Part shown: positions 4,794 to 52,417 of the stretch, piece after piece
Numbering within the stretch: the first letter of the stretch is position 1
Layout: each line of letters opens with the position of its first letter
Assembly (NCBI RefSeq): GCF_900112645.1
Contig: NZ_FOMO01000004.1
Location: 124,001 to 188,000, forward strand
Length of the DNA stretch: 64,000 nucleotides
Direction of reading: 5' to 3'
From: Phytopseudomonas straminea
GTDB taxonomy: Bacteria; Pseudomonadota; Gammaproteobacteria; Pseudomonadales; Pseudomonadaceae
Position numbers and translations under genes: made by a program
Notes under the pieces: generated by a model
Database searches by the model: none
Told to the model about the DNA's origin: nothing
Seen by the model: only the letters and a program-made list of their open reading frames with translations

Positions 4794-4900
4794 TGCTTCA
4801 TAGCTTTCTGATATGAGTTGATTGAAAAAATCTTTTTTACTCCCTTCACGTTTGCCCTTATAAGGTCGGCAAATGGCCCCTGTAGCCGGGAGTGAAGCGC

Positions 4901-5080
4901 ATGAGCAACGGCAAAGAAGACCTGGAACTGGACGACGACTTCGTCAGCGACGAAACGGACAGCAGCGAAGCCCCGGTGGAAGTGGCGAAAACCAACCTCA
5001 CTAAGCGACGCATCATCGACAATTTCCTCGAGGAGCGACGCCTGCACAAGCAGCTGGCCGAGTACGATTTCGATCTGTAA
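4901..5080 (+). CDS. PA3496-family small protein
   Basis: 59-aa acidic protein with a conserved basic tail around RRIIDNFLEERRLHKQL and ending EYDFDL. This matches the small protein next to nth in P. aeruginosa (PA3496 family, putative envelope integrity). ATG at 4901 is preceded by GGGAG at 8 bases; an in-frame GTG at 4892 is less likely. It is convergent with trxB across a shared terminator. Confidence 0.8.
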   Translation: MSNGKEDLELDDDFVSDETDSSEAPVEVAKTNLTKRRIIDNFLEERRLHKQLAEYDFDL

Positions 5081-5163: not shown

Positions 5164-6318
<1,155 letters not shown>

Positions 6319-6340
6319 TCACTTGTTGGAGACAACCCTG

Positions 6341-7108
6341 ATGCGCGCTCCCGTGCTGTCCGGCCCGCAATACCTGGGCGAAGGCCTGAAGCTGGTCATG
6401 AGCCCCGGCCTGCGGCTGTTCGTGCTGTTGCCGCTGGCGATCAACCTGATCCTGTTCAGCCTGATGATCGGCTTTGCCGTGCAGCAGTTCAGCGGCTGGG
6501 TGGATACATTCATGCCGTCGCTGCCGAGCTGGCTGAGCTTTCTGCAGTACCTCCTCTGGCCCCTGTTCGTGGTGCTGGTCATTCTCATGGTGTTCTTCAC
6601 CTTCACCATGGTGGCCAATATCGTCGCGGCGCCCTTCAACGGCTTTCTCGCCGAGAAGGTCGAGGTGGTGGTGCGCGGCCAGGACAACTTCCCGCCGTTC
6701 AGCTGGGGCGAGCTGATCGCCATGGTGCCGCGTACCCTGGGCCGCGAGGGGCGCAAGCTGGCGTATTTCCTGCCACGGGCCCTGGGCCTCTTGATCCTGT
6801 CGTTCATTCCGGTGGTCAACCTGGTCGCGGCGCCGCTGTGGCTGCTGTTCGGCGTGTGGATGATGGCCATCCAGTACATCGACTACCCCGCCGACAACAA
6901 CAAGGTCAGCTGGCAGGACATGCTCGCCTGGCTGCGCGAGAAGCGCTGGCAGTCCCTGGGTTTTGGCGGCATCACCTACGCTGCGCTGCTGGTGCCCTTC
7001 GTCAACATCCTGATGATGCCGGCTGCGGTGGCGGGCGCGACCCTCTTCTGGGTGCGCGAAGGTGGGGTGAGTTCAGGAACGGTCGCTGTCACGCAAACGC
7101 CACGCTGA
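6341..7108 (+). CDS. cysZ: Sulfate transporter CysZ
   Basis: 255-aa inner-membrane protein for sulfate uptake feeding cysteine synthesis. It has four or more hydrophobic segments and the family stretch [18 protein letters not shown]. The start [12 protein letters not shown] is preceded by GGAGA 8 bases upstream; an upstream open stretch of 39 codons is not family-like. The glycosyltransferase gene begins 15 bases after its stop. Confidence 0.92.
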
Positions 7109-7123
7109 TGTCACAAACGCTAC

Positions 7124-8353
7124 ATGACAGCAGCACAGACTGCTGTCATGAGCACTCCCCCGCTATTCATCGCCCTGGTCAGCGAGACCTACAGCCCGGA
7201 AATCAACGGCGTAGCCAATACCCTTAGCCATCTGGTCAAAGGCCTGCGTGCCCGCGGCCATCGCCTGCAGTTGATCCGCCCACGCCAACACCAGGACGCC
7301 CCCGCTGCCAATGACGACGACCTGCTGCTGACCCGCGGCTGGCCGCTGCCCGGCTACCGCGGCCTGCAGTGGGGGCAGTCGGCGCGCCACAAGCTGCTGC
7401 GCCTGTGGCGACGCCAGCGCCCTGATGTGCTGTATATCGCCACCGAAGGGCCGTTGGGCCTTTCAGCTCTACGTGCCGCGCGGCGTCTACAGATACCGGT
7501 GATCAGCGGCTTTCACACCAACTTCCAGCAGTATACCGGGCATTACGGCATCACCCTTTTAACCCGCCTGCTGACCAATTACCTGCGCTGGTTTCACAAC
7601 GCCTCACGCATGACCCTGGTGCCCAGCCTCAGCCAGCGCTGCGAGCTGCAACGTCGCGGCTTCGAGCGCCTGGAACTGCTCGCCCGCGGCGTGGATGCCT
7701 GGCTGTTCAACCCGGCGCGACGCAGCGATGAACTGCGCCGCACCTGGGGCCTGGGCGAGCAGGACATCGCCGTGCTGCATGTCGGCCGGCTGGCCGCCGA
7801 GAAGAACCTGGATCTGCTGGTCACCACCTTCCAGGCGTTGCAGCGCCAATCTGCCGGCAAGCGCCTGCGACTGGTGGTGGTCGGTGACGGGCCACTGCGT
7901 GAAAGCCTGCACAAGCAGCTGCCGGATGCGCTGTTCTGCGGCATCCAACGCGGCGAGGCGCTGGCGCAGCATTACGCCAGCGGCGACATCTTTCTGTTTC
8001 CGAGCCTCTCGGAAACCTTTGGCAACGTGCTGCTCGAAGCCATGGCCTCGGGGCTTGGCGTGGTCGCCTTCGATCAGGCCGCCGCTGCCCAGCATGTCGA
8101 GGATGGCCACAACGGCATGCTGGCCAGCGTCGATGATGAACGCACTTTCATCGACGCGGCCGGCTGGCTACTGGAGAACGGCGAGAACCTGCGTCGGGTG
8201 CGCCTCAACGCCCGTCAGCACGCGGCCAGACAAGGCTGGTCGAGTATCGTCGAACAGTTCGAACAGCACCTGTACACCGCGCAGCTGGATAGCAGCGTGC
8301 CTAAGGCTGGCCGCAAGCCAACCCTGGCGATCGAGAGCAAACGCGCGAATTGA
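7124..8353 (+). CDS. GT4-family glycosyltransferase (mannosyltransferase type)
   Basis: 409-aa GT-B fold enzyme. The N-terminal domain starts IALVSETYSPEINGVANT, typical of alpha-mannosyltransferases acting on glycolipids. The C-terminal domain has VLHVGRLAAEKNLD and the EX7E donor-binding motif in SETFGNVLLEAMASG. It is probably cotranscribed with cysZ. The acceptor substrate cannot be told from sequence. An alternative start lies at 7148 (MSTPPLFIAL). Confidence 0.88.
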   Translation: MTAAQTAVMSTPPLFIALVSETYSPEINGVANTLSHLVKGLRARGHRLQLIRPRQHQDAPAANDDDLLLTRGWPLPGYRGLQWGQSARHKLLRLWRRQRPDVLYIATEGPLGLSALRAARRLQIPVISGFHTNFQQYTGHYGITLLTRLLTNYLRWFHNASRMTLVPSLSQRCELQRRGFERLELLARGVDAWLFNPARRSDELRRTWGLGEQDIAVLHVGRLAAEKNLDLLVTTFQALQRQSAGKRLRLVVVGDGPLRESLHKQLPDALFCGIQRGEALAQHYASGDIFLFPSLSETFGNVLLEAMASGLGVVAFDQAAAAQHVEDGHNGMLASVDDERTFIDAAGWLLENGENLRRVRLNARQHAARQGWSSIVEQFEQHLYTAQLDSSVPKAGRKPTLAIESKRAN

Positions 8354-8392
8354 GACCGGGAAGATGACGGGCCGCAGGCCGCGGCCCGAGAG

Positions 8393-8875
8393 TCAGGCCA
8401 GGGCCTTCTCGATGGCCTGGATCAGCGCCGGATCATCCGGCGCGGTGCGCGGCGAGAAACGCGCGAGCACACGGCCATCCTGGCCCACCAGAAACTTCTC
8501 GAAATTCCAGGTGATGTCGCCGGGAAACTCCGCGCCCTCACCGGCCAGCAAGCGATACAGCGGATGACGACCGCTGCCGTTGACCTCCAGTTTGCTGCTC
8601 AGCGGAAAGGTCACGCCGTAGTTCAGGCTGCAGAACTGGGCGATGGCCGCCTCGTCATCCGGCTCCTGCCCGGCGAACTGGTTGCAGGGCACGCCCAGCA
8701 CGCTGAACCCTTGGGCGGCGTAGGTCTGCTGCAAGCGTTCGAGACCGGCATATTGCGGCGTGAGGCCGCATTTGGAGGCGACATTGACCACCAGCACCAC
8801 CTTGCCCTTGAGCGGAGCCAGCGGCAGCTCCTGGCCGTCTAATGCGTGCAGTGTCAGGTCGTGGAAGGCGCTCAT
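8393..8875 (-). CDS. Glutathione peroxidase-family thiol peroxidase
   Basis: 160 aa, full length for a bacterial GPx. The peroxidatic Cys is in VASKCGLTPQYAGLE, with conserved CNQFAGQEP and the WNFEKFLV block (Trp/Asn of the catalytic tetrad). It reduces hydroperoxides in the cytoplasm, probably with thioredoxin as reductant in bacteria. Its 3' end faces the glycosyltransferase gene. Confidence 0.93.
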   Translation of the reverse strand: MSAFHDLTLHALDGQELPLAPLKGKVVLVVNVASKCGLTPQYAGLERLQQTYAAQGFSVLGVPCNQFAGQEPDDEAAIAQFCSLNYGVTFPLSSKLEVNGSGRHPLYRLLAGEGAEFPGDITWNFEKFLVGQDGRVLARFSPRTAPDDPALIQAIEKALA

Positions 8876-8916
8876 GATGGGTGCTCCGGGTAAAGCGAGG
8901 CAGTGAAGATAAAACT

Positions 8917-8944
8917 AAAAAGGCGCCTGAAAAGGCGCCTTTTC
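8917..8944. terminator. Hairpin terminator upstream of gpx, downstream of slyD
   Basis: AAAAAGGCGCCTgaaaAGGCGCCTTTT forms a perfect 7-bp GC stem flanked by A- and T-runs, and lies just past the slyD stop on the minus strand. Confidence 0.88.
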
Positions 8945-9012
8945 ATGACTGCAGCTTAGCAGTCACTCATGACCATCTGCCAGCAGCGACCGATTCGCTG
9001 CCGACATACGGA

Positions 9013-9498
9013 TCAGTGGTGATGACCACCTTCGCCATGGATGTGACCATGGGCGATTTCTTCCTGGCTGGCGTCGCGCACGTTGACGACCTTGACCGCG
9101 AAATTCAGGCGCTGGCCGGCCAGCGGGTGGTTGCCGTCGACGATCACGTCATCGCCTTCCAGCTCGCGGATGGTGACGATCTGCATGCCGCCGTCCGGGC
9201 CGGAGGCGTGGAACTGCATGCCGACTTCCAGCTCGTCGACGCCTTCGAACATCGAGCGGTTCAGGGTGGCAACCAGTTCGGCGCTGTATTCGCCGTAGGC
9301 TTCTTCCGGCTCGACGGCAACCTTGACTTCGTCACCGGCCTGCTTGCCGACCAGGGCCTTCTCGAGACCGACGATGATGTTGCCGGCACCGTGCAGGTAA
9401 ACCAGCGGCGCGCCGCCAGCGGAACTATCGATCACCTCACCGGCATCGTTGGTCAGGGTATAGTCGATGGAAACGGCCTTGTTGGCGGCGATCTGCAT
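9013..9498 (-). CDS. slyD: FKBP-type peptidyl-prolyl isomerase SlyD
   Basis: 161-aa cytoplasmic prolyl isomerase and metallochaperone. It has the split FKBP domain (VSIDYTLTNDAGEVIDSS; GLEKALVGKQAGDEV) with an insert-in-flap region, and a His-rich tail (HGHIHGEGGHHH) that binds nickel or zinc. The start MQIAANKAVSIDY fits the family; an upstream in-frame ATG at 9624 adds 42 non-conserved residues. Confidence 0.93.
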   Translation of the reverse strand: MQIAANKAVSIDYTLTNDAGEVIDSSAGGAPLVYLHGAGNIIVGLEKALVGKQAGDEVKVAVEPEEAYGEYSAELVATLNRSMFEGVDELEVGMQFHASGPDGGMQIVTIRELEGDDVIVDGNHPLAGQRLNFAVKVVNVRDASQEEIAHGHIHGEGGHHH

Positions 9499-9810
9499 GG
9501 GGCGAACCTTTTGCTCGAGGAAAATGAACGTGTAAGTGTAACCAACGGCGGTGGCGAAAGCGACCCAAGCCCAGACGGGCGGGCCGCATCCGCGGTCGTC
9601 GTGGTCGGTTTTGAGCAAGATCATGACGGCTATTGGGTGGCTGTCCTATCCTGCGGCCATACTCAACACTTGCGCCATCAACCGCCCTGGCAAAATCGAG
9701 CCTGGGTGCTCGACGCCGCGCAGCGTCAGGCGAGAATCGGCACGAACTTCACCTGTGGCTGGTGTGTCGCAACATCAGTTCCAATGCTTCTGGATGCTAA
9801 GGACTTCTGA

Positions 9811-10995
9811 ATGCCCGCACGCAATATTCTGGTGATCAACTGCGGTAGCTCTTCCATCAAGTTCGCCCTGGTCGACCCCGATCAGCAGGCGTTCGCCATC
9901 AGCGGCCTGGCGGAGCGGCTCGGCAACGCCGATGCGTTGCTGCATTGGCAACTGGGCGGCGTCAAACACAGCCAAGCCATTCCCGGCGATGACCATCGCG
10001 CCGCACTGGCCCACCTGTTGCAGCGCGTGCAGGAGGCCACTGGCGGCCAACTGCACGGCATTGGCCACCGGGTGGTACACGGCGGTGAACACTTCACCAG
10101 CGCCCAACGTCTTGACGACGCGGTGATCGCCGCGATCCGCGCCGTCGCGCCCCTGGCGCCGCTGCACAATCCGGCGGGCCTGCTGGGCATCGAGGCGGCC
10201 CTGGCGCTGTACCCCGAGCTGCCCCAGGTGGCGGTGTTCGACACGGCCTTCCATCAGAGCCTGCCCGAGCACGCCTTCCGCTACGCGGTGCCGGAGCAGC
10301 TGTATCGTGATCACGGCGTACGCCGCTATGGCTTCCACGGCACCAGCCACCGCTTCGTCAGTGCCCGCGCGGCCGAACTCACCGGTCTGCCGGCGAGCGA
10401 CAGCGCCTGGCTGGTCGCCCACCTGGGCAATGGCTGCTCGACCTGTGCGGTGGTCAATGGTCAAAGCCGCGACACCAGCATGGGCCTGACGCCACTCGAA
10501 GGCCTGGTGATGGGCACGCGCAGCGGCGACGTCGACCCCAATCTGCACAGCCACCTCTCGCGCACCCTGGGCTGGAGCCTGGAGCAGATCGATCGCATGC
10601 TCAATCACGACAGCGGCCTGCTGGGCCTGTCGGGGCTTTCCAACGATATGCGCAGCCTCGAGCAGGCGCGTGAGGAAGGTCATGCCGGTGCCACCCTGGC
10701 CATCGAAGTATTCTGCTATCGCCTGGCAAAATCCCTGGCGGCCATGAGCTGCGCCCTGCCGCGCCTGGACGGCCTGATCTTCACCGGGGGCATCGGCGAG
10801 AACTCACCGCTGATCCGCAGCAAGACGGTGGCGCACCTGAGCCTGCTCGGCCTCAAGCTCTACGAAGCGGCCAACGCCCGCTGCCTGCGCGGCGTCAGCG
10901 GGCCGATCCACGCGGCGGACCATACGCGGGTGCTGGTGGTGCCCACCAACGAGGAGCGGCAGATCGCCCTCGACACCCTGGCGCTGCTCGACTGA
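9811..10995 (+). CDS. ackA: Acetate kinase
   Basis: 394 aa. Interconverts acetyl phosphate plus ADP with acetate plus ATP. ASKHA-fold motifs: [70 protein letters not shown]. It lies 14 bases before pta and is certainly in the same operon. Together they handle acetate overflow and acetyl-phosphate supply. Confidence 0.98.
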
Positions 10996-37792: not shown

Positions 37793-38617
37793 ATGGCAAA
37801 CCGACCTCCACTTACGGACGCTATTGTCGTAGCGATTTCACGCCTCGTTGATGACTCACAAACTGAAAAGCGTGAGCCCACCCACTCTGACATCGAGTTC
37901 CAGATCGATCAGGCCAAGCTCGCGTCCGCAGATCCTGGAAGGTTAAATAACAAGCCCACCGGAAAATCAAAACGAGTGCGCGGCACCCTGAGTTGGGCGC
38001 TATCGAATAATCCCGCTGCCGGCGAGTTGCTTGTTTCTGGTCTCATTTCTACTGTCCAAGGCTACGGCGGATTTCGCCCAACCTCCAGCAACTACTGCGG
38101 CACTGAGGCAATCACAAACCTCATCGCGGTATTTGCTGCACAAGGCTGGGTTCTTTCGTTGGATGGATCACTTCAGCCGCGAGTATTGGACTCACTGATG
38201 GGCAAGGCTCTTACTTCAGCGCTGCAGGCTTATGCTGACCGCGCACGGCGCGGTGCTTTGGACAGCCCACTGTTAGCTGGCACAGCCAAAGACCTGCTGG
38301 AGGCAACAGCTGCTCATGTGCTGGTGGAAAAGTGGGGTTCGTACCCAAGCACCTCCAATTTTCCAACGTTGTTAGGTCAAGCATTTACGGCCCTTGGCCT
38401 CGCCACGCCAAGCGATCCAGTAGTCGCTGGTGAACCTGTCAATAGGCGAATGGAGCGCGCCGCATATGACTTGGGCTGCGCCTTGAACGCTCTACGTAAC
38501 AAAGAGGGCACTGGTCACGGACGGCCTTGGATTAGCGGGATCAATCCCGCCCAAGCTCGTTTTTCCATTGAGTCCATGGGCAACATTGCGTCATTAATGC
38601 TTGACACGCTGACATGA
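37793..38617 (+). CDS. Abi-C domain protein (abortive infection family)
   Basis: 274 aa. The C-terminal ALNALRNKEGTGHGRPW and SMGNIASLMLDTL match the Abi_C domain (LRNxxGxxHG core). The N-terminal part includes a DUF-like helical region. These proteins accompany phage-abortive systems; mechanism unknown. ATG follows AGGCACC weakly. Convergent with the Ser/Thr kinase gene, which ends 95 bases away. Confidence 0.8.
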   Translation: MANRPPLTDAIVVAISRLVDDSQTEKREPTHSDIEFQIDQAKLASADPGRLNNKPTGKSKRVRGTLSWALSNNPAAGELLVSGLISTVQGYGGFRPTSSNYCGTEAITNLIAVFAAQGWVLSLDGSLQPRVLDSLMGKALTSALQAYADRARRGALDSPLLAGTAKDLLEATAAHVLVEKWGSYPSTSNFPTLLGQAFTALGLATPSDPVVAGEPVNRRMERAAYDLGCALNALRNKEGTGHGRPWISGINPAQARFSIESMGNIASLMLDTLT

Positions 38618-38712: not shown

Positions 38713-40377
38713 CTAGCGAGCGAAGCCCTGCTGCAATTCTGACAAGTCGATGCGAGCTGCCTCTCTGTTTGCGGCCAGATGGCGTTGTCGGGTCCATTGT
38801 CCATCTACGATGACTCCGCTGTGATCACTGACATTTGGAAGATCAAGATGACTTGGCATGCTTGATCGTTTAGCCACCAGTAGCACGAAACTCGAACGGA
38901 GCACATCCTGAACCGTCTGGTCGCCTAAAACTCTCTCAAGTAAATGCTCTCGATGTACAACCGGCTGAGCGCAATCATAGACAATTGTGAATACCGGGAG
39001 ATTGAAGACGCGGGACAGTTCAATTGCTTCATCCCACGAATTTGTAAGGCGATCTCGGAGAACATGAAGTCCTGAAAACTCAGGGGTCAAATCTATCGGC
39101 TCATGCTTCATCACACGAAGTATGTCCGTGATGACGGCCTCCTCCAGGACGGAGGATGGTGACAACTTCTCTAGGTCAATGCCGATCTCTACCCGATGCA
39201 CCTCGCCTGAGAAGTTATGCCAAACAAGATCCCCGCCGGCTATCTCCACCCAAATATAGGTGCACAGCCGATAGGCGCCTTCCATATCCCAACGGATTCG
39301 CACAAAGCCGAGCTCAGCTTTAGGAACAATATCCACTTGCTGGGCAGTCAAAAGTCCATTGCTTTTGACTGCAACATCCTTGTACGCCGCCATTGCCCAC
39401 TCCAGCGCTTTACGTACAAGCTGTGATCGATCTCCACGGCTTTGAATGGACCGATCTTCCATAAGCCGCTGTAGCTGCTCATGCTTGTCGGCCGGCTCTG
39501 GCTCAGAATGCCTTGTGAGGATCTTGCGTAAACCGTCCTTCATTTGCTCTGCGGTCAGGAACCGTTTATTGACAGGTACCGCGAATGCTTTGTCGAAGAA
39601 GCTCCGAATGCCGCTTCGCTCAAACCCTGAGAAGTATCGCAGCACGTCCGCTCTCTGATGGGGAAGCTTCTCCTCCCCGTCTACTAGCTGGGTCGGATTC
39701 CTATGGGTGAAGAGAAAGAAGAAAACACCGGCAACCACCGTGAGATCGGAAACAGGGCTGCGCTTGTCTTTACTGCCCCCTTTCAACTCCGGTAGCGATA
39801 GGAATCTATTTCCAAGCTCATTACCCTCCAAAGTAAGTGGCTTTGGCATATCCAAGTTCTGATCGTATGCGATGCCAAAGTCAATCAGTACAGGGCAAAG
39901 CACATCACCCTCTCGCATGATAATGTTGTCCGGTTTGATGTCACGGTGGAGAACTCCTGCAGCATGCGCATGAGCCACCGTATCCAGTAGCTTGAGCGTG
40001 ACTTCGATCATCTGGTCGAGACTGAGCTTCCTATTTCGACTGAGCCAGTCACGCAGAGTGCTTCCTTCAATAAATTCGGTTGCGATATATAGTCCGACGT
40101 TTTTGTCAGCGTGAAGATGAGTATTGGACTCGATCATTCGAGGGACTTGAAGCCCTGAGAGCGAGTTGTAAGAGCGAGCCTCACTATAGAATCTGGCACG
40201 TCGTTCGCTACGATCCTCTTTGAGGATCTTTAAGAAAGCGATCTGCTGATCCTCCTTGCGAACAGCCTTGTGCCCTACTCCTTGACCGCCCTCACCGACC
40301 CCTTCCTCAAGAATCTCCCAGCGCTCGTTGAACGAAGCAGTATCAATCCATTGTTCGCGTGACGACTCAGGCTTCAC
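38713..40377 (-). CDS. Serine/threonine protein kinase, long C-terminal extension
   Basis: 554 aa. Hanks-type kinase domain: P-loop GEGGQGVG near residue 27, catalytic Lys in AFLKIL, HRDIKPDN near 143, DFG (IDFGIAY) near 163, plus an activation segment with a PELKGGSKD start. Catalytic residues are present, so active. The C-terminal 250 residues are unlike known sensors (contain SRVFNLPVFTIVYD and LVAKRSS). GTG at 40377 is preceded by AGGAG at 8 bases; a GTG at 40386 is an alternative. Opposes the Abi-C gene; anti-phage role inferred. Confidence 0.85.
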   Translation of the reverse strand: MKPESSREQWIDTASFNERWEILEEGVGEGGQGVGHKAVRKEDQQIAFLKILKEDRSERRARFYSEARSYNSLSGLQVPRMIESNTHLHADKNVGLYIATEFIEGSTLRDWLSRNRKLSLDQMIEVTLKLLDTVAHAHAAGVLHRDIKPDNIIMREGDVLCPVLIDFGIAYDQNLDMPKPLTLEGNELGNRFLSLPELKGGSKDKRSPVSDLTVVAGVFFFLFTHRNPTQLVDGEEKLPHQRADVLRYFSGFERSGIRSFFDKAFAVPVNKRFLTAEQMKDGLRKILTRHSEPEPADKHEQLQRLMEDRSIQSRGDRSQLVRKALEWAMAAYKDVAVKSNGLLTAQQVDIVPKAELGFVRIRWDMEGAYRLCTYIWVEIAGGDLVWHNFSGEVHRVEIGIDLEKLSPSSVLEEAVITDILRVMKHEPIDLTPEFSGLHVLRDRLTNSWDEAIELSRVFNLPVFTIVYDCAQPVVHREHLLERVLGDQTVQDVLRSSFVLLVAKRSSMPSHLDLPNVSDHSGVIVDGQWTRQRHLAANREAARIDLSELQQGFAR

Positions 40378-40513
40378 CTTCCCCACTCCTAGTTCATCTG
40401 TTGAAGGCTCATCGTACTGGAAGGCTTAGCGCTAGTGGCGTTGGAGGAACTGATAGCTGGCTATGCATGGAGAATTCTGTATTTCGATAGGCAAAGCCCC
40501 TCCTTCAGAGAAC

Positions 40514-40687
40514 TCAACCAGGCAACTGGGCCTTGATCTCGACGAGCAGATCGATGATCCGCGCTTGCTCTCGTGGGTCTGCCGGGGCTGCTGCCTTGGC
40601 TACTGCTTCCGGTTGTTCCAGCAGAGTTCGCAGCGCATCGCGGTCGTTTTCGTTCAGATCGAGGGCAAAAGTTGTCCGAACGGTCAT
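40514..40687 (-). CDS. Small unknown protein (57 aa)
   Basis: Starts MTVRTTFALDLNENDRDALR; helical. ATG overlaps the upstream stop (ATGA), so translation is coupled to the 139-aa gene. Possibly a small regulator. Confidence 0.65.
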   Translation of the reverse strand: MTVRTTFALDLNENDRDALRTLLEQPEAVAKAAAPADPREQARIIDLLVEIKAQLPG

Positions 40688-41103
40688 TTTAATTGCCCGT
40701 GCAATGTCAGTTGGATACCAGCTGTTTGGCACTTAGCCATCAGTGCCGAATTGTCGTAACAAAACAGTTCGACTCGATCCCGGACGCTGCTGGGCGCGTC
40801 GTCGAAAAGCGCGTTGCGCAGATCCAGGAGAACGGCCTCGGTCGGTGGCCACGGACTGAATAGCGCCAGGTGCCAGCTGGTGTTGGCATCACCTGGTAGG
40901 CCGAGGATGTGGCTCGGCACGACAAAGGCGGCGCTGACTGGAACCACGAGGTTGGCGATGGTCATGGTCAAAATGAACGGGCCGGCGAGGCCATTGCCTG
41001 GAGAGACACGCAGCTCCGCGAGCTGCGCCTCCAGGTTCGCGATTTGGTGATCGCGCATCTGTTCGGCTAAGTGCCGAATTTCAAGCATGGAAGTTTCAGA
41101 CAT
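40684..41103 (-). CDS. Unknown protein (139 aa), end of relaxase operon
   Basis: Starts MSETSMLEIRHLAEQMRDHQ with a short coiled coil and a hydrophobic, beta-rich centre (FILTMTIANLVVPVSAAFVV). Preceded by the leader CCACGAAAGGAAGAAACC. No family recognised; lies 49 bases after the Toprim gene and probably belongs to the transfer operon. Confidence 0.65.
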   Translation of the reverse strand: MSETSMLEIRHLAEQMRDHQIANLEAQLAELRVSPGNGLAGPFILTMTIANLVVPVSAAFVVPSHILGLPGDANTSWHLALFSPWPPTEAVLLDLRNALFDDAPSSVRDRVELFCYDNSALMAKCQTAGIQLTLHGQLK

Positions 41104-41151: not shown

Positions 41152-42309
41152 TTACATGCGGCGGGGCTCTGGCCGGAATTCGGCTTCATGCTCCGCGGCG
41201 TGTTCGGGTTCGGTGGACTGGGCCGGCGTAGCCGCTGCAGGCGCTTGTTCAATCTGTGCCGGCGTGGTCTTGATCTCGGTCGGCTCGGGGGTCATGCCTT
41301 GCAGGCGCTGCACGCCTTGGTTCGGGTCTTCGCCGAGCTGCAAGCCGATGCGCTCACGCACGTCCTCGATCTCAGCATCAGGAAAGCGCTCGGCCAGCCG
41401 AGCGGAACGCTTCGCGGTGAGGTTGTCGCCGCCTTGGTCGCGATCGTAGGCCAGGGAAAATCGGCGGATATTGTGGCGCTCGGCCAGGGCGATGATTGCC
41501 GCCTCGGTATTCGAACCAGGTTCGCCTGTGGTTCCCACGAACAGGATCCGCTGACGCTCTTCAGGGGTGGCCAGTTGATAGGTGCTCAGAACGTCTACGC
41601 CGCCTTCGCTGAAGCGGATTTCGATGGGGTTGGCACAGCGAGGGTTAGCGAGATAGATGCCTTTCTCTGTATCAGTCGTGAAGCCTTTGAACTGACGTAG
41701 TTCGCCGTCGATCATCTGAGCCCCGCGGTATTCATAACCGCAAAACTTGCCTTCCGCGTCGATGTGAGGGAACACAGCAGATCCGTGTTTGCTGGTACGC
41801 CAGCGCGTTTCCGCCAAGACTTCAGGCGAGATGCCCCGCTCCTGGCTCAGGTAGATGTCGCGCCGCCCCATGAATCCGAAAGCCCGATAGTGACCTTTCG
41901 TGCTGGAGGCGATTGTCTCCTGCCGTTCACGCTCCTTCTGCTGACGTTTCTCATCGCGTGCCCGGTCGATACGGGCCTGCTCTTCTGGTGATTTACCGAG
42001 CGACGGCAGTACGCCGCCCTGGAACGCACGAACATCGTCCTTGGCCTGGGCGAAGGTTCCGCCCCTGACCTCCTGGTAGAGCTTGAAGATGTCTCCGCTC
42101 TTGTCCGCATGACGGTCATGCCAGATCCAGTTGTCATCAGTGGCCTGGTAGATGTCGTATTTACCTGCACCGTAGCGAAAGACTGCATGGCCCTTGTACG
42201 AGGCCTGCTTGTCGTACTCCATACCCAAATGAGCGGCGTAAGCGGTCAGGTCAACGTCGAGCTTCATCGCGGCTATTTCACGGGCGTCGGCTGCTTTGTC
42301 GAATTTCAT
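41152..42309 (-). CDS. DUF3991/Toprim primase-like protein (or C-terminal domain of the long relaxase frame)
   Basis: 385 aa. N-terminal DUF3991-like region (YAAHLGMEYDK, HADKSGDIFKLY) and a Toprim core (ILFVGTTGEPGSN, FSLAYDRDQGGDN, with DRDxGG). It has its own ATG at 42309 with CGGGAG upstream, directly after the stop of the 129-codon gene. The reading frame is continuous with the relaxase 46047-, so readthrough could make a fusion. The C-terminus is Pro/Ala/Glu-rich. Confidence 0.7.
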   Translation of the reverse strand: MKFDKAADAREIAAMKLDVDLTAYAAHLGMEYDKQASYKGHAVFRYGAGKYDIYQATDDNWIWHDRHADKSGDIFKLYQEVRGGTFAQAKDDVRAFQGGVLPSLGKSPEEQARIDRARDEKRQQKERERQETIASSTKGHYRAFGFMGRRDIYLSQERGISPEVLAETRWRTSKHGSAVFPHIDAEGKFCGYEYRGAQMIDGELRQFKGFTTDTEKGIYLANPRCANPIEIRFSEGGVDVLSTYQLATPEERQRILFVGTTGEPGSNTEAAIIALAERHNIRRFSLAYDRDQGGDNLTAKRSARLAERFPDAEIEDVRERIGLQLGEDPNQGVQRLQGMTPEPTEIKTTPAQIEQAPAAATPAQSTEPEHAAEHEAEFRPEPRRM

Positions 42310-42317
42310 GGGGCGAG

Positions 42318-42707
42318 CTACTCCCGAATCAGGAACCGCCCGTCGCACTCCACCAGGAGAGTGTCGATCAGTGCGTGCATTACCGGGCAATAGACCCTCA
42401 CGTCGCCCTCCGGGATCTGCTGCCAAATCGCATGTGGACAACGTACGCAAACCGTCTGTGGGGGCTCGCCCTGCAGGGCGCTTAACGTGGCCGAAAGGAC
42501 GGGAGAAGGCTTCTTCGTTTGCTGCTTCACCGGCGCCGGCGGCGCGGTCAAATCGGCCAAGGCTGCCGGCAACGGTTTGGCTACCGGACTCGGTTCGGGG
42601 TTCGGATCGGGAAACTCCATCACCGGCGGCGACAGGTCGTCCGTCAACTCGGAGATATTTGCCGAGGCTGGCAACGGGGGCAGGTCGGGCAGGATCGATT
42701 CGGACAT
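42318..42707 (-). CDS. Small Cys-containing protein in the +1 frame of the relaxase
   Basis: 129 aa. Pro-rich N-terminus (MSESILPDLPPLPASANISE) then a compact Cys domain (VCVRCPHAIWQQ, VYCPVMHALIDTLLVECDGRF). The ATG has an ideal AGGAGG 6 bases upstream. The composition is protein-like, while the relaxase frame here is Arg/Gly-rich and unlike any domain. It therefore looks like the real product of this stretch. CxxC and YC suggest a metal site. Confidence 0.7.
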   Translation of the reverse strand: MSESILPDLPPLPASANISELTDDLSPPVMEFPDPNPEPSPVAKPLPAALADLTAPPAPVKQQTKKPSPVLSATLSALQGEPPQTVCVRCPHAIWQQIPEGDVRVYCPVMHALIDTLLVECDGRFLIRE

Positions 42708-45700
42708 AGCGGGCCTCCTGGGGCTCTGGCTTGATCGGTTTCAATTTCGTTGTGAAGAGGGCGGGTTTCATGCCCTGGAGCGTTTCGCACAGGTCGCGGC
42801 GGTGCTCGGGCGTCTCGGTCGCGCCGGGGTTTGTCCAAGGCACGATTTCTACGCCTGGAGCTGGGTTTTCAGCGGCGACTACGGCCACGCGGCGGGCATC
42901 GGCTGGCCAGGCCTGTTCGTCGGTGCGAAGGTCGACGACGGCAGCGCCGAAAGCCTTGGCGTGCTCGATCTCAGATTGCACGGGAAGCAGGACGGTGATG
43001 GATTGCCCGGTTTTTTCCTGCGGCAGGGCCTTCGCCTGGCCTGGGAATTGGAAGAGTGACGAAACATCCTGGAGGCGATCGAGGACTGATAGCTTCTGAG
43101 GGGTTAGCTTGAACGGCTGCCCGGTTTGTACGGATGCACGGATCGCTTCGCGGGCCTGCGGCATCAGGTCAAGGGCGTTGTCCTTGTAGACGTATTCCGC
43201 AGTCGACTTCTTGAAGGACAGCCAGTTGGCTTCACTCAGATAGGTTTTGCACCCATAGATCCCGCGCGTATAAGCCGTGTACCAGGACTTGAGGGATGCA
43301 TGCGCCGGCAAGTAGTAGGCGGCCATCACCGTGCAGCCTTGCGCTTTATGGCCGGTCAGACAGTATCCGAGCTGAAGCGCCTCGTACTCGCTAGAGTTGA
43401 TCTTGACCGTCTTCCCATCGTCCCGGGCGATGGTGAACAAAATGTCCTCGATCTGATCACCGTCGACTTCACGAGTGACACGCTCGATACCCAGAACAGT
43501 GCCGAGGTCGCCGTTGTAGACAGGTTCGCTCTGAGCATCCTTGGCCGTTTTGCGCAGCAGCAGTCGATCGCCAACAGCAACCTGGATCGTGAAGCGCTCC
43601 CCGGGAAGTACCTCCGTTTCGATACTCACGCTGCCCTCAACCCGCAATTCACCACGAGCGAATCGGGCATCACGGATCTTGTCGTTAAGCGCTCTAACCT
43701 GTTCGTTGGTGTCAGCCAGGACGAGGATCTGGGACCAGTCCAACTCTCGAACAACACCATCTTTTCCGGGTAGGCCGGTTTTCATGTCGGCAAAAACATC
43801 GCCAACCAGTTCGTCGGCCTCGTACACACCATCGGAGAAAACCTTGAGCTGATCGTCGCGCTGCATGTACCGAATTGCGTCGCTCACCTTGCCTTCGTAT
43901 AGGGCCTGGGCAGTCGGCTTGAACTGTTCAACCTGGCGGGCGATGGTTTCGATCTTGGCGCAACGGTCGCCAACAGCATTATGCAGAAGGCCGAACAATG
44001 CGGCGGTTTCCACCGCATCATGCTGGTTTCTGTCACCGACGCAGATCAGGCGGGCGCCCGCCTGATGGCACGCAACCACCAGGTTATGCATCTGGTAGGT
44101 ATCCAGCATGCCGGCCTCATCGCAAACGACAATATCGCCGCGACCGATGAGATCTTGCTGTTTGAAACGCTGCCCGGCCTGCTGCGCGGCAAGCGCGTTC
44201 TGGTGCTTGATCAGCAACGAATGGACGGTTTGAGCCTGGATTCCGGTCGACTTCGCCAGCTCCGTCGCTTGCTTGTTTGCGGGGGCAACGCCAATGACTC
44301 GCCGGCCCTGCGCTTTGAATGCTTCGGCGTAGACTCGGAAGGTCGGCGCCAAGGTGGCCGACTTACCCACGCCAGCAGCCCCCTTCAGGAATGTGTACTG
44401 GCCTGAGCCGGTCAGATCGTACGCGGCCTGACGCTGTTCCTGGGTCAGCTTGAAAGGCTTCTCTCCGGGCTTTTGGGTTGCCTGCTTTTCTGTTTCATAA
44501 GCGTCGATTACACGGTCAACCAAGGCGCGATCAACATTCCAACGGGGATCATTCAGACCGGCATAGACCGCCTTGAGGCAGTCGGCCTCCAAGGTAATGA
44601 ACTCCTTCGTCGTGTAACGCCGCGGCGGCGTCCGGCCGTTATCGTCCGGTTGCTGGGGGATCTCGATAAGGCCGAGCTGCGTGAAGATCTCCGACTTGGT
44701 TGCCGCGATTTGATCCAGTCCACCTTTACCGATGGTCAGGTGTGCGGCTGCGGAATCGATCGCGAATTCATCAATGACAGTGGAGCCGCGGAACACCATG
44801 CGCTGCAGTTCGGCCAGGCTCGGTGCCTTCAGGTCTGCTGCTGTGGATGCTTTCAGCTTGATTGTGGGGATCGCTTCGCGCCAATGGGCGTCCAGACTGT
44901 CGCCCAACTCGATGTCTTTCGCATCGCGACTTCGGACAGCGATCGCCTGAGCGGCCGCTTGGCCAGAGGTGGCCATCGTCTTCTTCTCGGTCTGGATCTG
45001 CTCGCTGCGCTTGGAGAACTCGGCTACGAGTTGCTTTGAGACTGACGCCTCGTTGAGGCGAAGACCGTGCCCGCTCCAGTCGACGACCATCGCCGAGGCC
45101 AACTCTGGTAGGCGTGCCTGGAGACGCTGAAAAAAGGCCACGTCGACGACTGCACCAAACTCCTTCTGGCTCTTGTACAGCCACCCCGCATCGAGGGTCA
45201 GGAACTTGCCATCGATGGTGCGAACGAAGTTCGGACGCTCCAGGTGTACATGCAGCTGAGGATCAGGGAAGTCCTGGCCGGGTGCGCGACGGGCAGTGCA
45301 GTGGGCATATGTGAGTGTGACGCAATCACCGGTGACCGACTCGGCCCCCTGGGCGCCTTCACGCCCGCGAATCCGGCCAGTGCGATGCTCATTCTCGATC
45401 GCATCGTTCACAGCACCCATCATGCATTCCTGGATCACTCGACGGGTTCTGTCGTCGGTCTGTGCCCAATAGAGGCTGATTGACTTCTGAAGGCTCACGC
45501 ATGAGGAGAAACCGAGAACAGGGTCCTTTGCCGCTTGTTCTTTGCTTTCCTTCTCCAGGCGCTCCAGATCACCGGCTTCGAGTTGCTTTTTCGAGGATGG
45601 ATTTGCCTTCTTCGATTCAGCTTCCTGAATAGCCTTGTAGATAGACTTTTGGCGCTTCTCGTCCAGGAACGCCTCGCCAGTCCGCGGGTTGATTCCACGG

Positions 45701-46047
45701 AAAAGCGCCAGATAGTCGCCGTCCTGAGGATGCTCACCAAGGCCCAGCTTTGCAGCCAGCGGGCCAGCAATTCCAGACGCTAGAGTGTCGTTACCGGACT
45801 TGTGGTAGTAGTCCTCCCGCCCCGTACCCTGGTCACCCTCAACCTGGCTGACGATGGAGGCGATCTCGGCATCGACTTTCGCCAGCTCGGCAGCCATGAC
45901 CGCATCTGTCACGCCGCGCTCTGCACCCAAAGCAATGCGCTCCTCGCGCAGTGCCTGGAGCTCCTTCAGCTTCTTTTCGAAGTAGCTGGCCTTGGCCGCA
46001 AAGTTGCCGGCCGTGGTCTTCTGGTTGCTCATCCCATAATGGCTCAT
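42700..46047 (-). CDS. MOBF conjugative relaxase-helicase (TraI/TrwC-like)
   Basis: About 1110 aa of recognisable protein; the frame stays open to 41152 (1631 codons). N-terminal relaxase domain: Tyr22 and the Tyr80-Tyr81 pair (ASYFEKK, EDYYHKS) and metal ligands LHVHLERPN near residue 265. Helicase domain: Walker A LKGAAGVGKS near 551, Walker B VVCDEAGML near 640. It nicks oriT and unwinds plasmid DNA. Unusually, about 50 residues separate the two Tyr motifs. Overlaps the accessory gene upstream (ATGA). The 3' boundary given is where homologous-looking sequence ends. Confidence 0.88.
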
Positions 46048-46478
46048 CGATCGATCTCCATGCCTGTCTGCTCAGCAATGAGCCGATCCATGACCATCGG
46101 TACCAGCCGATTGAGCATCGGCTCAACGGTGTCGGCGAGCAGTTCAGGCCGGCGCTCGGCCTGGCTGGCGAGAACCTGCAACACCAGATCAGGAAGAGCG
46201 GAGCCCAGAAGGGAAGCAACGGACTGGGTGATTGCACCGGCCATCGACGCCACAACCGGACCATCGAGGAGGATGGGAATAGGTCGGAAAGGCTCGGCAG
46301 AGAAACGCTGCGCCTCCAGGAAGCCGGCGATTTCTTCGTCTGTGCGCTGGGACATGAGGGCATCGAGCACGCGGCCTTGAGCGACGCCCAAGCGCGCGGA
46401 AAGGCGCTCCAGGCGCACGACCGCAACTTCATCTAGGTACTGGGTCGAGGTCTTTGCCCCGGCCTTCTTCCGCGCCAT
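46044..46478 (-). CDS. Relaxosome accessory protein (TrwA-like position)
   Basis: 144 aa. N-terminal MARKKAGAKTSTQYLDEVAVVRLERLSARLG resembles a ribbon-helix-helix DNA-binding start; the rest is helical. It precedes the relaxase gene with a 4-base overlap and follows the oriT-like region, the position of trwA in R388. Function inferred from place. Confidence 0.65.
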   Translation of the reverse strand: MARKKAGAKTSTQYLDEVAVVRLERLSARLGVAQGRVLDALMSQRTDEEIAGFLEAQRFSAEPFRPIPILLDGPVVASMAGAITQSVASLLGSALPDLVLQVLASQAERRPELLADTVEPMLNRLVPMVMDRLIAEQTGMEIDR

Positions 46479-46619
46479 TTTCCTTTTCCCTTCTGAGAAC
46501 GCTTCTCAGGTAGACAGCACTATGCCGGCGTACCTTGCTTTTGCTTTGTCTGCTTTCCGGCTTGGAGTCCGCGCTGTGCGCGGGATCCGGGCCGACGCGA
46601 AGCACCCGAAGGGTGCAGA

Positions 46620-46833: not shown

Positions 46834-47376
46834 ATGTTCAAACGCCCTGAGGACCTGATCGCGGAACAACAGGAAGCCGAAGAGATGGCTGCAGAACTGG
46901 AGGCATGGCTCGCGAAAGAAGAAGCCACGGAGCAGAAAAATCGGCGGGGGGCGGGGTATCGCCTACTGAACCCGGTTCGAGCACAGATCGCTCTGCTGAT
47001 GCAGCGCGGGAAGACAGTTAAGGACATTCACCGTGCGCTCGATGAAGCGCTCGGCATCAAGGTGGACCTGAAGACAGTTCGCAAATTCATGGTCGACCAC
47101 ATGCCCGAGGAATACGCCTCGTACCTAGGCGCAACGAAACGCGGCAAGAAGGAAAACCGTGTTTTCAGGGATGAATCAAAGCCGACTGATGAGGAACTAC
47201 AAGCTCCGCTGACCCCGGTCGAGCAAGCTGAAGTAGACAAGTTTCTAGGGTCGGCAACCCTTGAAACACAAGTTAAACCCGCTGAACCGTCTGCAAAGAA
47301 ACCGCCGCTTACAGCTGGCGATCTTCGGGCCATGACGGGGCAGATTGACCCTGAGACGTACCGATCCGACGAGTAG
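46834..47376 (+). CDS. StbA-like DNA-binding protein
   Basis: 180 aa. A helical N-terminus and a region NPVRAQIALLMQRGKTVKDIHRALDE followed by VDLKTVRKFMVDHMPEEY resemble the DNA-binding part of StbA, which binds direct repeats beside oriT in R388. The location next to the repeats and stbB-like gene supports this. GGAGGAGAACGGGA precedes ATG. Confidence 0.65.
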   Translation: MFKRPEDLIAEQQEAEEMAAELEAWLAKEEATEQKNRRGAGYRLLNPVRAQIALLMQRGKTVKDIHRALDEALGIKVDLKTVRKFMVDHMPEEYASYLGATKRGKKENRVFRDESKPTDEELQAPLTPVEQAEVDKFLGSATLETQVKPAEPSAKKPPLTAGDLRAMTGQIDPETYRSDE

Positions 47377-47404
47377 TCGGGACAACCACGAAAGGAAGAG
47401 AAAC

Positions 47405-48127
47405 ATGCGCGTAGCACTCGTCAACCTTGGCGGCAACCAAGGCAAGACCACCCTCGCAGTTAACCTGTTCGCCCCGCGTATGCCGGAAGCGAAGATCCTG
47501 GCTGTTGAAACGATCAACGCTGCCGGTGGCGACCTTGGTGCTGCTGTTGAGCAGCTGAAGGGTGAGCAGTTCGCCCGTATCTATGCCGAACTCGCCGCGG
47601 CCGATGAGCTGATCCTCGATGTCGGTGCATCCAATATCGAAGACTTCCTGGTCGGCCTCAGCCGCTTCGAAGATGGCCACGATGAAATCGATCTCTTTGT
47701 CATTCCGTGTACTTCGGATACCAAGGAGCGCACTGAGGCCATCAAAACCGCCCACATGCTGAGCGCGCTCGGCGTCCCGGCCGAAAAGATCCAGTTTGTC
47801 TTCAACCGCGTAGTGGATGGGGTAGAAGCCGAATTCGGTGACGTGCTGAATTTTGCGAAGAAGACTGGTTTGGCTCAGGCCAATCCAGCATGCGTAGTCC
47901 CGGAATCCGAACTTTTCGCGCTCCTCAGCGACCGGAAAATGAACATCGTTCAGGCTCTGGCGGATACCACGGACTACAAGGCTGAGCTGAAAGCAGCAAC
48001 GCGCAGCGACGACAAAAAGGCCTGGCGTCGTGCAATGGACATGCTGGCCATTACCAAACAATCCAAGTCGATGGATCGCCAGCTCCAGCATGTGTTTGAA
48101 CTGCTGACCTCGCCGGTAGGTGCCTGA
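47405..48127 (+). CDS. StbB-like P-loop ATPase
   Basis: 240 aa. MRVALVNLGGNQGKTTLAVN is a ParA-type Walker A with GGNQGKTT. The rest matches StbB-type partition/transfer ATPases (LVGLSRFEDGHDEIDLFVIP; VIPCTSDTKERTEAIKT). The start at 47405 is preceded by AAGGAAG at 8 bases. Works with StbA in plasmid positioning and transfer by analogy to R388. Confidence 0.8.
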   Translation: MRVALVNLGGNQGKTTLAVNLFAPRMPEAKILAVETINAAGGDLGAAVEQLKGEQFARIYAELAAADELILDVGASNIEDFLVGLSRFEDGHDEIDLFVIPCTSDTKERTEAIKTAHMLSALGVPAEKIQFVFNRVVDGVEAEFGDVLNFAKKTGLAQANPACVVPESELFALLSDRKMNIVQALADTTDYKAELKAATRSDDKKAWRRAMDMLAITKQSKSMDRQLQHVFELLTSPVGA

Positions 48128-49861: not shown

Positions 49862-52417
49862 ATGGTAACGCAATTTCAGAAGTATATGAAAAGCCTGCTC
49901 ATCTGGGTCACTGATCCAGAAGCAGCTAAGCGCGCCTGGCGGGAGCGCCGCACGCTGGCAATTCGCGCAGCTCTCGGCCCGCAACTCAGTGCTGACACCC
50001 GCGGTTGGCCGGTCAATCAGATCCTGCATGACGATGTGATCGAGCCTTTGCCGTCAGATCGTGCGGCGCTGACGCGCCGCGCCTTCTACGGCCGAGCTGC
50101 ATTTCATGCCGGCGCCCGCCTCCAGCGCCGACTGCGTGCCCGGAATTTTGCGCTCAGCATCGGCACGCTCTTTATCGTGTCTGCTACGGCGTACCTGCTT
50201 GGTCGCAACGGCTCCAGCCTTGCATGGCAGTGGGGCTCGACGGCTGCAGGTCTGTGCATTGCGGGCGCCGGCGCCTATGTTTTCCGCTTATCTCTCGGCC
50301 TTTCGCCTGCAGCTTGGCGGGCGATGGTCCCGGCCGGTGAGTTGCTGACCAGCGAAGAGATCCAGGACGTGAAGGAGTTCGGTGCTCGCGTGCTGCTGCG
50401 CGTCACGCCGCCACAGTCACCGGCCGACCTGGTGGGTTCGTATCGCTCCTGGACGTACGACCGCGACGGCAACCCTGTCGATGGTCAAATCGTCCCTGAC
50501 GATCTGTCTGTTTCGTATTTGCGCAAGGCGTTGGTTGATGAGTCGGTGCCGATGGCTGTCGCTGGCATTGCGATTCTGCTGGCCGGCCTGTTCGTGGCGA
50601 CAGACTCGTTGAGTTGGTTCATCGCGCCTGTTGCCGCCGGCGGCGCCGCTGTTTGGTCATTCCTGGCCATTTTCGATCTGGCGTCGATCGCTAAGACTCG
50701 CGCCGCAGCTGCTCGCGAGGCGCTCGCTGTAAGCGCTTACCCCAAGCTGATCGAACAGGAAGGGAAGTCGAAGTTTGCGGACTTTGATCGCGCCCTGGAT
50801 GAACAGCTCGAACGAGCGATGGCCGAAAAGTCGCTGTTCATCAACCTGGGCATTGCTACTGATCTCTTTGCTGAGCGACGTGATCCGTACAGCCCGCCTC
50901 AAGCGGGCATGCCATTTGGCCTGTCTGTTGCGGACCTTTCTACCCACATGCTCGCGCTGGGCCAAACCGGTACCGGCAAAACGGCTGCTGTGATCCGCCC
51001 CGTTGTATGGCAATGGCAGGTTGCCAACGCGGGTGGGCTGCTGGTCCTCGATGGTAAAGGCCAACTGCCCAAGGAGTTGGTTGGCCTTCCAGGCTTCCAG
51101 GTGATCAGCCCTGAAAACACTGCGTTCAATCCAATCCAAGGGCTCATGCCGGATGAGGTGGCGGAAACACTGTTCAAGCTCTTCTCGTCCGATAAGGGAA
51201 ACGCCGGCGACGTTGCCGGAAACGAATGGGAGCAATTTGCGCGGGAATTGCTGCGCAGCGCCTCTAAGGTTCTGGCAATGATGAATGCCATCGAGCCCGA
51301 TGAATGGCCGTGGACTCTGGGGTCAATCTACAAACTGGCATTCGAGTCGAACAGCCGCGCACGTGCTAAGCAAATCATCGAAGAGAACAGCAAGTGCTTC
51401 GATCTTCTCCCTGGCCATCTCCGCCGTGCCTACAGCGCATTCATGACTCGCCACATGGAAAAAGCGAACGAAACACGCTCTTCCATTGAGCTCAATCTGG
51501 AGACCTGGTTGGGTACGCTGATCAACGATCAAGAGCTCGGGGCATGGGCTGACACCGTTGAAGGCGTCGAGATCGAGGACTGCCTTTATGGCGCGATGCT
51601 CGGCCTGGCTCTGCCAGACAGCCAGACTGGCGTTGCCATCTCCGCTCTTGCCAAGCGCCGCTTCTACAGCTCGATCAAGCGCCGTGGCGATGGCTGGAAG
51701 GCTGAAGGCCAAGTGCCTGTGCTGCTGGTGATCGATGAGGCGCAGGATCTGGTGTCGCATGAAGAGTTGGCGATCCTGCCTAAAGCCCGTTCGCTCGGCC
51801 TATGTGCGCTGTATTCGACTCAGGGGCTCGATGGTCTGCAGGTTGCTCTCCAGGACGAACAGGCGACGATCATGCTGCTCGATCAGTTCCGTTCTGTAGT
51901 AACGCTGCAGGTCGGTTCTGAAATGACTCTCGACTACGTGTCGCAGCGTCTGGGCGCTGCGCCTCGCGTAGTGTTCACCGAAGTCGCTGCGAACTCCACC
52001 GACCCGGTGGCCACCGCCAATCTATACGGCGCCAATGCTGGTGGTTACTCCACCGGAACCCTGGCTGCTAAAGCGCAAACGTCGGACGAGATGATCAAAG
52101 TTGGCCGCTCCTATAGCCATGTTGGCCAGGCGATCAGCACCGTAGCCGAGTTGGCGAAGAAGCTGGGTGCCGAACAGGCTTGGCAGCAACTGCCCGCCGC
52201 GATTCGCCGCGAACGGCCAGCCGGCAGCGTGAAGATTGGCGAAATCCCGCTTGTTTCACCGGATGAGATCCGTTCGCTAACGATGAATAAATTCACGGCC
52301 CTGGCTGCAGTGAATCGCTGCGGCACAATTCGTCGCGCCCAGATCCGTTTGAGCCCGATGTTCGCCTTCCCAGTTGAGATGAAAACCGAACAGGCCACCG
52401 AGGAGGCTGCAGCATGA
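49862..52417 (+). CDS. Type IV coupling protein (TraD/TrwB family)
   Basis: 851-aa inner-membrane ATPase that brings relaxase-DNA to the secretion channel. Two N-terminal membrane segments (residues about 95-145 and 225-275), Walker A GQTGTGKTAA near 367, LLVLDGKGQLP, and Walker B VLLVIDEAQDL near 622. Preceded by CCACGAAAGGAAGAAATTAC. The 286-aa membrane protein gene overlaps its end (ATGA). Confidence 0.88.
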   Translation: MVTQFQKYMKSLLIWVTDPEAAKRAWRERRTLAIRAALGPQLSADTRGWPVNQILHDDVIEPLPSDRAALTRRAFYGRAAFHAGARLQRRLRARNFALSIGTLFIVSATAYLLGRNGSSLAWQWGSTAAGLCIAGAGAYVFRLSLGLSPAAWRAMVPAGELLTSEEIQDVKEFGARVLLRVTPPQSPADLVGSYRSWTYDRDGNPVDGQIVPDDLSVSYLRKALVDESVPMAVAGIAILLAGLFVATDSLSWFIAPVAAGGAAVWSFLAIFDLASIAKTRAAAAREALAVSAYPKLIEQEGKSKFADFDRALDEQLERAMAEKSLFINLGIATDLFAERRDPYSPPQAGMPFGLSVADLSTHMLALGQTGTGKTAAVIRPVVWQWQVANAGGLLVLDGKGQLPKELVGLPGFQVISPENTAFNPIQGLMPDEVAETLFKLFSSDKGNAGDVAGNEWEQFARELLRSASKVLAMMNAIEPDEWPWTLGSIYKLAFESNSRARAKQIIEENSKCFDLLPGHLRRAYSAFMTRHMEKANETRSSIELNLETWLGTLINDQELGAWADTVEGVEIEDCLYGAMLGLALPDSQTGVAISALAKRRFYSSIKRRGDGWKAEGQVPVLLVIDEAQDLVSHEELAILPKARSLGLCALYSTQGLDGLQVALQDEQATIMLLDQFRSVVTLQVGSEMTLDYVSQRLGAAPRVVFTEVAANSTDPVATANLYGANAGGYSTGTLAAKAQTSDEMIKVGRSYSHVGQAISTVAELAKKLGAEQAWQQLPAAIRRERPAGSVKIGEIPLVSPDEIRSLTMNKFTALAAVNRCGTIRRAQIRLSPMFAFPVEMKTEQATEEAAA

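Follow-up and report, generated by a model that had tools for sequence, protein, structure and literature searches.

A traH homologue nested within a MOBF relaxase-helicase-Toprim gene of Phytopseudomonas straminea

How many proteins are made from a reading frame that continues from a conjugative relaxase into a Toprim domain, when the stretch joining the two also encodes a cysteine-containing protein in another frame? The question is raised by a 64,000 nucleotide (nt) stretch of a Phytopseudomonas straminea contig (NZ_FOMO01000004.1, positions 124,001 to 188,000; hereafter, the window), in which an uninterrupted frame of 1631 codons begins with an ATG at 46047 and has a stop ending at 41152. 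A first-pass annotation had described this frame as a relaxase-helicase followed by DUF3991 and Toprim, which is confirmed here and placed on the minus strand, the strand not having been given; it had also concluded that the stop of the relaxase was missing, with either three genes overlapping without that stop, or readthrough generating a fusion with an out-of-frame linker. The explanation we consider very probable, judging from sequence comparisons, is a MOBF relaxase-helicase-Toprim gene containing a traH gene nested in the +1 frame, with its own AGGAGG and ATG, the product of which would serve as a relaxosome protein. This explanation is preferred because of the homology of the nested protein, its register, the stronger conservation of the TraH frame, the avoidance of stops in the host frame, and a linker longer than that in relatives lacking TraH.

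The nested protein and its host frame

Compared by sequence, the nested protein is a homologue of TraH, an IncP-type relaxosome protein. It overlaps approximately residues 1114-1243 of the host protein, in the linker between the helicase and Toprim domains, and carries the motifs CxxC, C and CDG. A single BLASTP comparison with TraH of the IncP-1beta plasmid pB8 found 33 of 110 residues to be identical (E 2e-9), and the alignment of profile against profile with hhalign gave a probability of 98 (E 2.1e-13). Across 16 diverse aligned members, including those of the window and pB8, the four cysteines (in a CxxC-W-C-CD pattern), one tryptophan and one aspartate are invariant. The pB8 record annotates the same kind of open reading frame (ORF) as traH inside traI, the traI gene of R751 contains another in its +1 frame, and two IncP records annotate a separate traH. 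Searching 72,556 plasmid records with the window protein, using tblastn, returned four matches, in MOBP-type plasmids of Xanthomonas, Polaromonas and Paraburkholderia; the three that were inspected all lay in the +1 frame of an annotated gene. The first-pass annotation had seen this Cys protein, without recognising it as TraH.

TraH is acidic, its N-terminal part being proline-rich and probably disordered, and its four-cysteine C-terminal part possibly metal-binding; a profile search of the PDB found nothing meaningful (best E 0.45). The net charge of TraH is -8 in the window and negative in 29 of 33 loci, versus a host linker that is positive in 28 of the 33. Acidic TraH codons (GAN) are read as NGA, encoding arginine or glycine, in the host frame, giving opposite charges, and selection for this arrangement was considered. 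The charge of the host linker matches that obtained by synonymous shuffling (mean z -0.22), and is therefore a by-product of the code, with no support for selection.

Could such an ORF have arisen by chance in Arg/Gly-rich, GC-rich sequence? Its length alone is not unusual, as a +1 ORF of 140 codons or more appeared in 89% of 2000 shuffles of the host's synonymous codons. Length is therefore uninformative, and the weight of the argument rests on relatives with the same protein in the same register. As such homologues are found at GC contents of 0.27-0.66, in this same register, and the four cysteines are invariant in the aligned members, a chance origin is rejected by homology, and we assign it a negligible probability.

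Judged by its domain content, the host frame is a true MOBF relaxase-helicase-Toprim gene, and the element it belongs to has conjugation genes. The NCBIfam MobF model scores 100.6 bits against its product (cut-off 100), and the MOBP Relaxase domain (PF03432) had no match in this protein at E values up to 1. A search for related loci (compared loci are labelled by L-numbers) identified six Pseudomonas contigs, L008-L013, each of which encodes the Cys protein in the +1 frame. Where the first-pass annotation had proposed looking for a stop near residues 1110-1130, the relaxase frame of L008-L012, five full-length relatives of 1630-1633 residues, is open through Toprim; overall, the frame is open in eight of nine full-length relatives (L008-L012, L067, L076 and L077), with L013 the exception. 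In that locus (P. bharatica CSV86, 6001-10852), the host frame is broken twice and TraH is intact. Two MOBF relaxases of Methylobacterium plasmids (L018 and L019) likewise combine a relaxase, a helicase, DUF3991 and Toprim within a single frame, and the TraH profile has no match in either. Given that the fused form also exists where TraH is absent, and that the frame is uninterrupted in relatives, no stop is missing. The genes do overlap, as the first-pass annotation had suggested, but the stop of the relaxase follows Toprim, and neither readthrough nor frameshifting is needed to explain the fusion.

The locus may also yield Toprim as a separate protein. An in-frame ATG lies 5-8 nt after the traH stop in all 13 MOBF-Toprim loci, which comprise three subgroups, and nine of which are the window and its near kin; the residues that follow differ between subgroups (MKFDK, MARFD, MSKPRR and MPKQRR). 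In the window, this ATG is at 42309, and GGGAG is found 11 nt upstream of it. This arrangement suggests reinitiation after the traH stop, making free Toprim. Hence the start codon that the first-pass annotation had assigned to Toprim recurs in every one of these loci, but the ribosome-binding site it had also assigned is particular to the window, where alone a Shine-Dalgarno (SD)-like motif was seen by eye, and the product itself is putative.

It could be argued that Toprim functions separately from the relaxase-helicase, as a second protein, the fusion being a by-product, with Toprim made only from the internal ATG and coupled to the end of traH. The near-constant position of this ATG, despite the differing residues after it, is what such coupling would be expected to leave. 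However, the frame is kept open in almost all full-length relatives, the two Methylobacterium relaxases are fused without traH, and separate proteins would not need the stop avoidance detected by codon permutation (described below), making this an unlikely account. Under the preferred explanation, some ribosomes would instead begin with the relaxase and read on across traH as far as Toprim, others would initiate at the traH site, and some may restart at the ATG just past the traH stop to make free Toprim. By analogy with what is reported for RP4 TraH, the nested protein would then stabilise the relaxase complex at oriT.

Register and constraint of the two frames

How constant is the nesting? 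At an E cut-off of 0.01, the R751 protein matched 822 of the 72,556 plasmid records, with 16 of the 60 matches listed being retrieved for comparison. Searching genomes with the window protein found matches in seven of 194 relatives, including L006, which was dropped as probably false, having no TraH profile hit. With the TraH profile, matches were obtained in 5 of 369 genomes at the level of the class, in 21 of 398 within the genus and in 6 of 398 across the phylum, these sets overlapping and each including the window's own genome. Applied to 93 sources, namely the window and 92 loci, the profile detected 57 distinct TraH stretches. In 56 of these, the match falls in the +1 frame relative to a host frame that spans it and stays open for at least 300 codons; as the profile derives from nested sequences, and many of the stretches are closely related, very different un-nested members could escape it. 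The single exception, L064 (the same locus as L083), is a 20-residue match (E 6e-4) with stops present, and is probably decayed or false. The +1-frame protein with an ideal start, noted in the first-pass annotation, is therefore a real gene product in prediction, with homologues in a shared register.

That register would also be expected if a programmed frameshift joined the relaxase to TraH, the +1 ORF being a frameshift tail with no start of its own. However, AGGAGG lies 6 nt before the ATG in the window, SD-like motifs precede a TraH start in 31 of 33 loci (the exceptions being L076 and L082), and a separate traH is annotated in the two IncP records, rendering a frameshift very improbable. 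The motif comprises five or six bases in 16 of the 33 loci, and these SD counts lean upward, as the script picked the start with the longest motif.

Individual loci vary in how the two frames are preserved or recorded. In L076, from the same genus as the window, the N-terminal end of the TraH frame (approximately 4733-4960) is shortened and an ATG preceded by an SD motif is lacking, and the host frame is open, encoding 1454 residues. In the plasmids pP9Me2 (L021, 3911-7741) and pDSJ05 (L086, 2444-5440), the traH region is crossed by host frames of 1277 and 999 codons, respectively; the annotation of each covers the LPD7 part downstream but omits the relaxase part upstream, and both are typed as non-mobilizable. 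The pP9Me2 record annotates the TraH ORF as a hypothetical protein.

Which of the two frames is selected? Had the relaxase frame been the conserved one across the overlap, the +1 reading would have been in difficulty, but replacements affecting only TraH are rarer per site than those affecting only the relaxase in 13 of 13 pairs, which share members. Comparing the window with L010, relaxase-only replacements occurred at 0.26 per site and TraH-only replacements at 0.15, with flanking synonymous values of 0.45 and 0.50, and flanking replacement values of 0.11 and 0.09. Relaxase-only changes are also rarer than upstream synonymous changes in 12 of the 13 pairs, the exception being L077-L067. These rates therefore identify TraH as the more constrained protein, and the host linker as weakly constrained. 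In 8 of the 13 pairs, none of the changes leaving TraH unaltered would have introduced a stop into the host frame (0 of 9 sites for the window and L010). When the codons of TraH were permuted, the probability of the host frame being open ranged from 0.0009 to 0.65 across 15 loci (0.049 in the window), with ln P summing to approximately -46.9; this sum leaves out L022, the row of which contains the host's own stop, and represents no formal probability, as the loci are related. The linker in the host frame would appear to be mostly a spacer, strictly needing only to be free of stops.

Set against this explanation are the uninformative length of the ORF and the restriction of the SD-like motif before the Toprim ATG to the window, both described above, along with four further points. 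Firstly, the predicted structure of TraH, based on seven sequences, is poor (mean predicted local distance difference test 50.9; predicted template modelling score 0.27), and does not support a zinc fold. Secondly, the lack of an ATG with an SD motif in the TraH of L076, and the interrupted relaxase of L013, mean neither product is kept in every copy. Thirdly, the most diverged pair, L026-L082, has approximately 2.5 changes of the class that would stop the host frame, at 8 sites. Fourthly, the relaxosome role of TraH is taken by analogy from RP4, which has a MOBP relaxase, and from no MOBF element.

In our view, a gene nested in another on the same strand is usually regarded as an accident of its locus, and yet TraH is nested in all but one of the distinct cases. 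Annotation often misses one of two nested genes: no model in Pfam-A or NCBIfam fits the TraH family, and a feature is named traH in only 2 of the 60 plasmid matches listed. Two testable questions follow, namely why TraH is nested, and whether a dual-frame segment can move between proteins as a module. The answers bear on how the relaxosomes of MOBF elements are built.

Host families and the linkers containing traH

The host proteins that can be classified by their domains are MOBP, MOBF and MOBQ relaxases, with TraH found in several different interdomain linkers. The TrwC domain of Pfam identifies as MOBF the hosts of the window, L067, L077 and the Moraxella locus L020, and L008, L009 and L076 are placed with them by alignment. 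Among the 25 members of one alignment, 13 hosts match the MOBP Relaxase domain, two (L025 and L070) match MobA_MobL, corresponding to the MOBQ type, and 15 match TraI_MobP of NCBIfam. LPD7 is present in L016 (which also has a helicase), L023, L026, L074 and L079, with no relaxase-domain match by Pfam, and L068 has a weak LPD7 match alone, leaving its host unclassed.

The MOBP domain order is relaxase, TraI_middle, LPD7 and TraI_C. TraH lies between LPD7 and TraI_C in L017, L027, L065, L069, L071 and L080, between the relaxase and TraI_middle in L014 (224-321) and L072 (258-350), and between TraI_middle and LPD7 in L015 (287-357), which has no TraI_C match. In the MOBF group of the window it lies between helicase and Toprim, and in the Moraxella MOBF host between relaxase and helicase (TrwC 23-296, TraH 312-393, helicase from 638). 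In L022 and L066, TraH overlaps the C-terminal end of the host.

These positions raise the question of whether traH is a nested gene that is portable, moving as a cassette with two open frames into interdomain linkers of unrelated MOBP, MOBF and MOBQ relaxases, always in the +1 register. This is advanced tentatively, our judgement leaning somewhat against it. Were it true, one insert would give the host a spacer together with a relaxosome gene, and nesting would be obligatory for making or assembling TraH, for example beside the nascent relaxase. Between anchors at 958 and 1298 in MOBF-Toprim hosts, the linker is 278-343 residues in six with TraH, versus 160 and 165 in two without. Similarly, the gap from relaxase to TraI_middle, where L014 and L072 carry TraH, measures 121 residues in the former and 188 in the latter, versus 9-13 in the seven MOBP hosts with TraH further on (L017, L027, L065, L066, L069, L071 and L080) and 40 in L015. 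However, the gap from LPD7 to TraI_C spans 132-230 residues in the six hosts that carry TraH at that position, versus 159 and 154 in L014 and L072 without, and that from TraI_middle to LPD7 is 216 in L015, with TraH, which is similar to the 207-214 of L069, L071 and L080, without. Hence movement of a cassette fits two of the positions, and support from length is missing at the other two. Loss of TraH in Methylobacterium may be an alternative to insertion.

A tree built from 66 columns of the Cys domain in 33 rows requires four changes of host family (the minimum being two), only one of which is forced by the starred branches; rows not classed as MOBF or MOBQ were treated as MOBP by default, several having no relaxase-domain match. 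The 19 position labels on this tree require six changes, which is the minimum for seven states, the label of L016 assuming an unmatched relaxase domain. The distribution of host families on this sequence-based tree suggests repeated transfer of traH between them.

Neighbouring genes and known systems

The coordinates of the nested genes, and of their surroundings, are collected in Table 1.

Table 1. Features of the relaxase locus, in window coordinates
Feature	Position	Strand	Basis or remark
MOBF relaxase-helicase-DUF3991-Toprim gene, host frame	41152..46047	minus	1631 residues; also open in L008-L012, L067, L076, L077
TrwC relaxase domain, residues 73-392	44872..45831	minus	PF08751, E 3.4e-35
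SF1 helicase AAA_30 match, residues 534-737	43837..44448	minus	Pfam, E 9.3e-40
traH homologue, 129 residues, four conserved Cys, +1 frame relative to relaxase	42318..42707	minus	BLASTP and profile-profile match to pB8 TraH
AGGAGG ribosome-binding site of traH	42714..42719	minus	6 nt before ATG
Possible separate DUF3991-Toprim product, 385 residues	41152..42309	minus	Internal ATG 8 nt after traH stop; putative product
DUF3991, residues 1399-1462	41662..41853	minus	Pfam
Toprim_2, residues 1481-1555	41383..41607	minus	Pfam
Gene in place of IncP traJ, end overlapping relaxase start	46044..46478	minus	Homologues before relaxase in L008, L009, L013; no Pfam match
Imperfect 17-nt inverted repeat, 3-nt loop, between divergent transfer genes; candidate oriT	46558-46594
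Two divergent genes (46834-47376, 47405-48127) in traK and traL places; second resembles StbB	46834..48127	plus	No Pfam match
TraG/TraD-type coupling protein matches	49862-52417

The upstream gene, the divergent pair and the inverted repeat recall the traJ-oriT-traK layout of IncP plasmids by position only, as the proteins in the traJ, traK and traL places had no hits against R751 (L017). The StbB-like protein matches at the annotated stbB genes of L020 and L023. Directly behind the relaxase, a 139-residue protein with no Pfam match (40684-41103, minus strand) has homologues in L077, L009, L008, L076 and L067. Near the relaxase are also found a protein with an abortive infection C-terminus (Abi_C; 37793-38617, plus strand) and a protein kinase (38713-40386, minus strand), possibly representing defence cargo.

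What, then, is new at this locus? The nesting of traH in traI is already known from RP4 and other IncP plasmids. RP4 TraH is reported to be acidic, to be read within traI in a frame other than that of the relaxase, and to stabilise the interaction of TraJ with TraI at oriT (PMC7314908), and another report lists traH of an IncP-1beta plasmid as encoding a relaxosome stabilising protein (PMC3614916). The name TraH has also been given to other proteins of F and PromA plasmids, the likeness here being to that of IncP. New are the MOBF host, the helicase-Toprim linker and the possible third product, and the nesting of TraH in one register across three relaxase families and several linkers is possibly a new, wider generalisation. 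A literature search, outside which fell most subscription papers and the original RP4 papers, did not turn up any description of TraH within a MOBF or MOBQ gene.

A close parallel in anatomy, as described, is the mobA/repB-mobB region of RSF1010. There, RepB' starts at an internal in-frame codon, and MobB is a membrane protein not known to carry the TraH-type Cys motif. The mobB gene of this IncQ plasmid is reported to lie inside mobA/repB in another frame, with the relaxase fused to a downstream primase (PMC2200642). The two Methylobacterium plasmids have the same order of MOBF and Toprim domains in one frame as the window, but TraH has no hit there, and compared with the six hosts bearing TraH their linker is shorter by 113-183 residues. 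The IncP plasmids R751 and pB8 were used for the comparison, RP4 being represented by its published description: like the window, they encode a homologue of this Cys protein within the relaxase gene, read in the +1 frame from an ATG and SD motif of its own. Their host is instead a MOBP relaxase, with traH between LPD7 and TraI_C in R751, whereas that of the window is a MOBF relaxase, with traH between helicase and Toprim, and with a possible third product that distinguishes this locus from its IncP counterparts.

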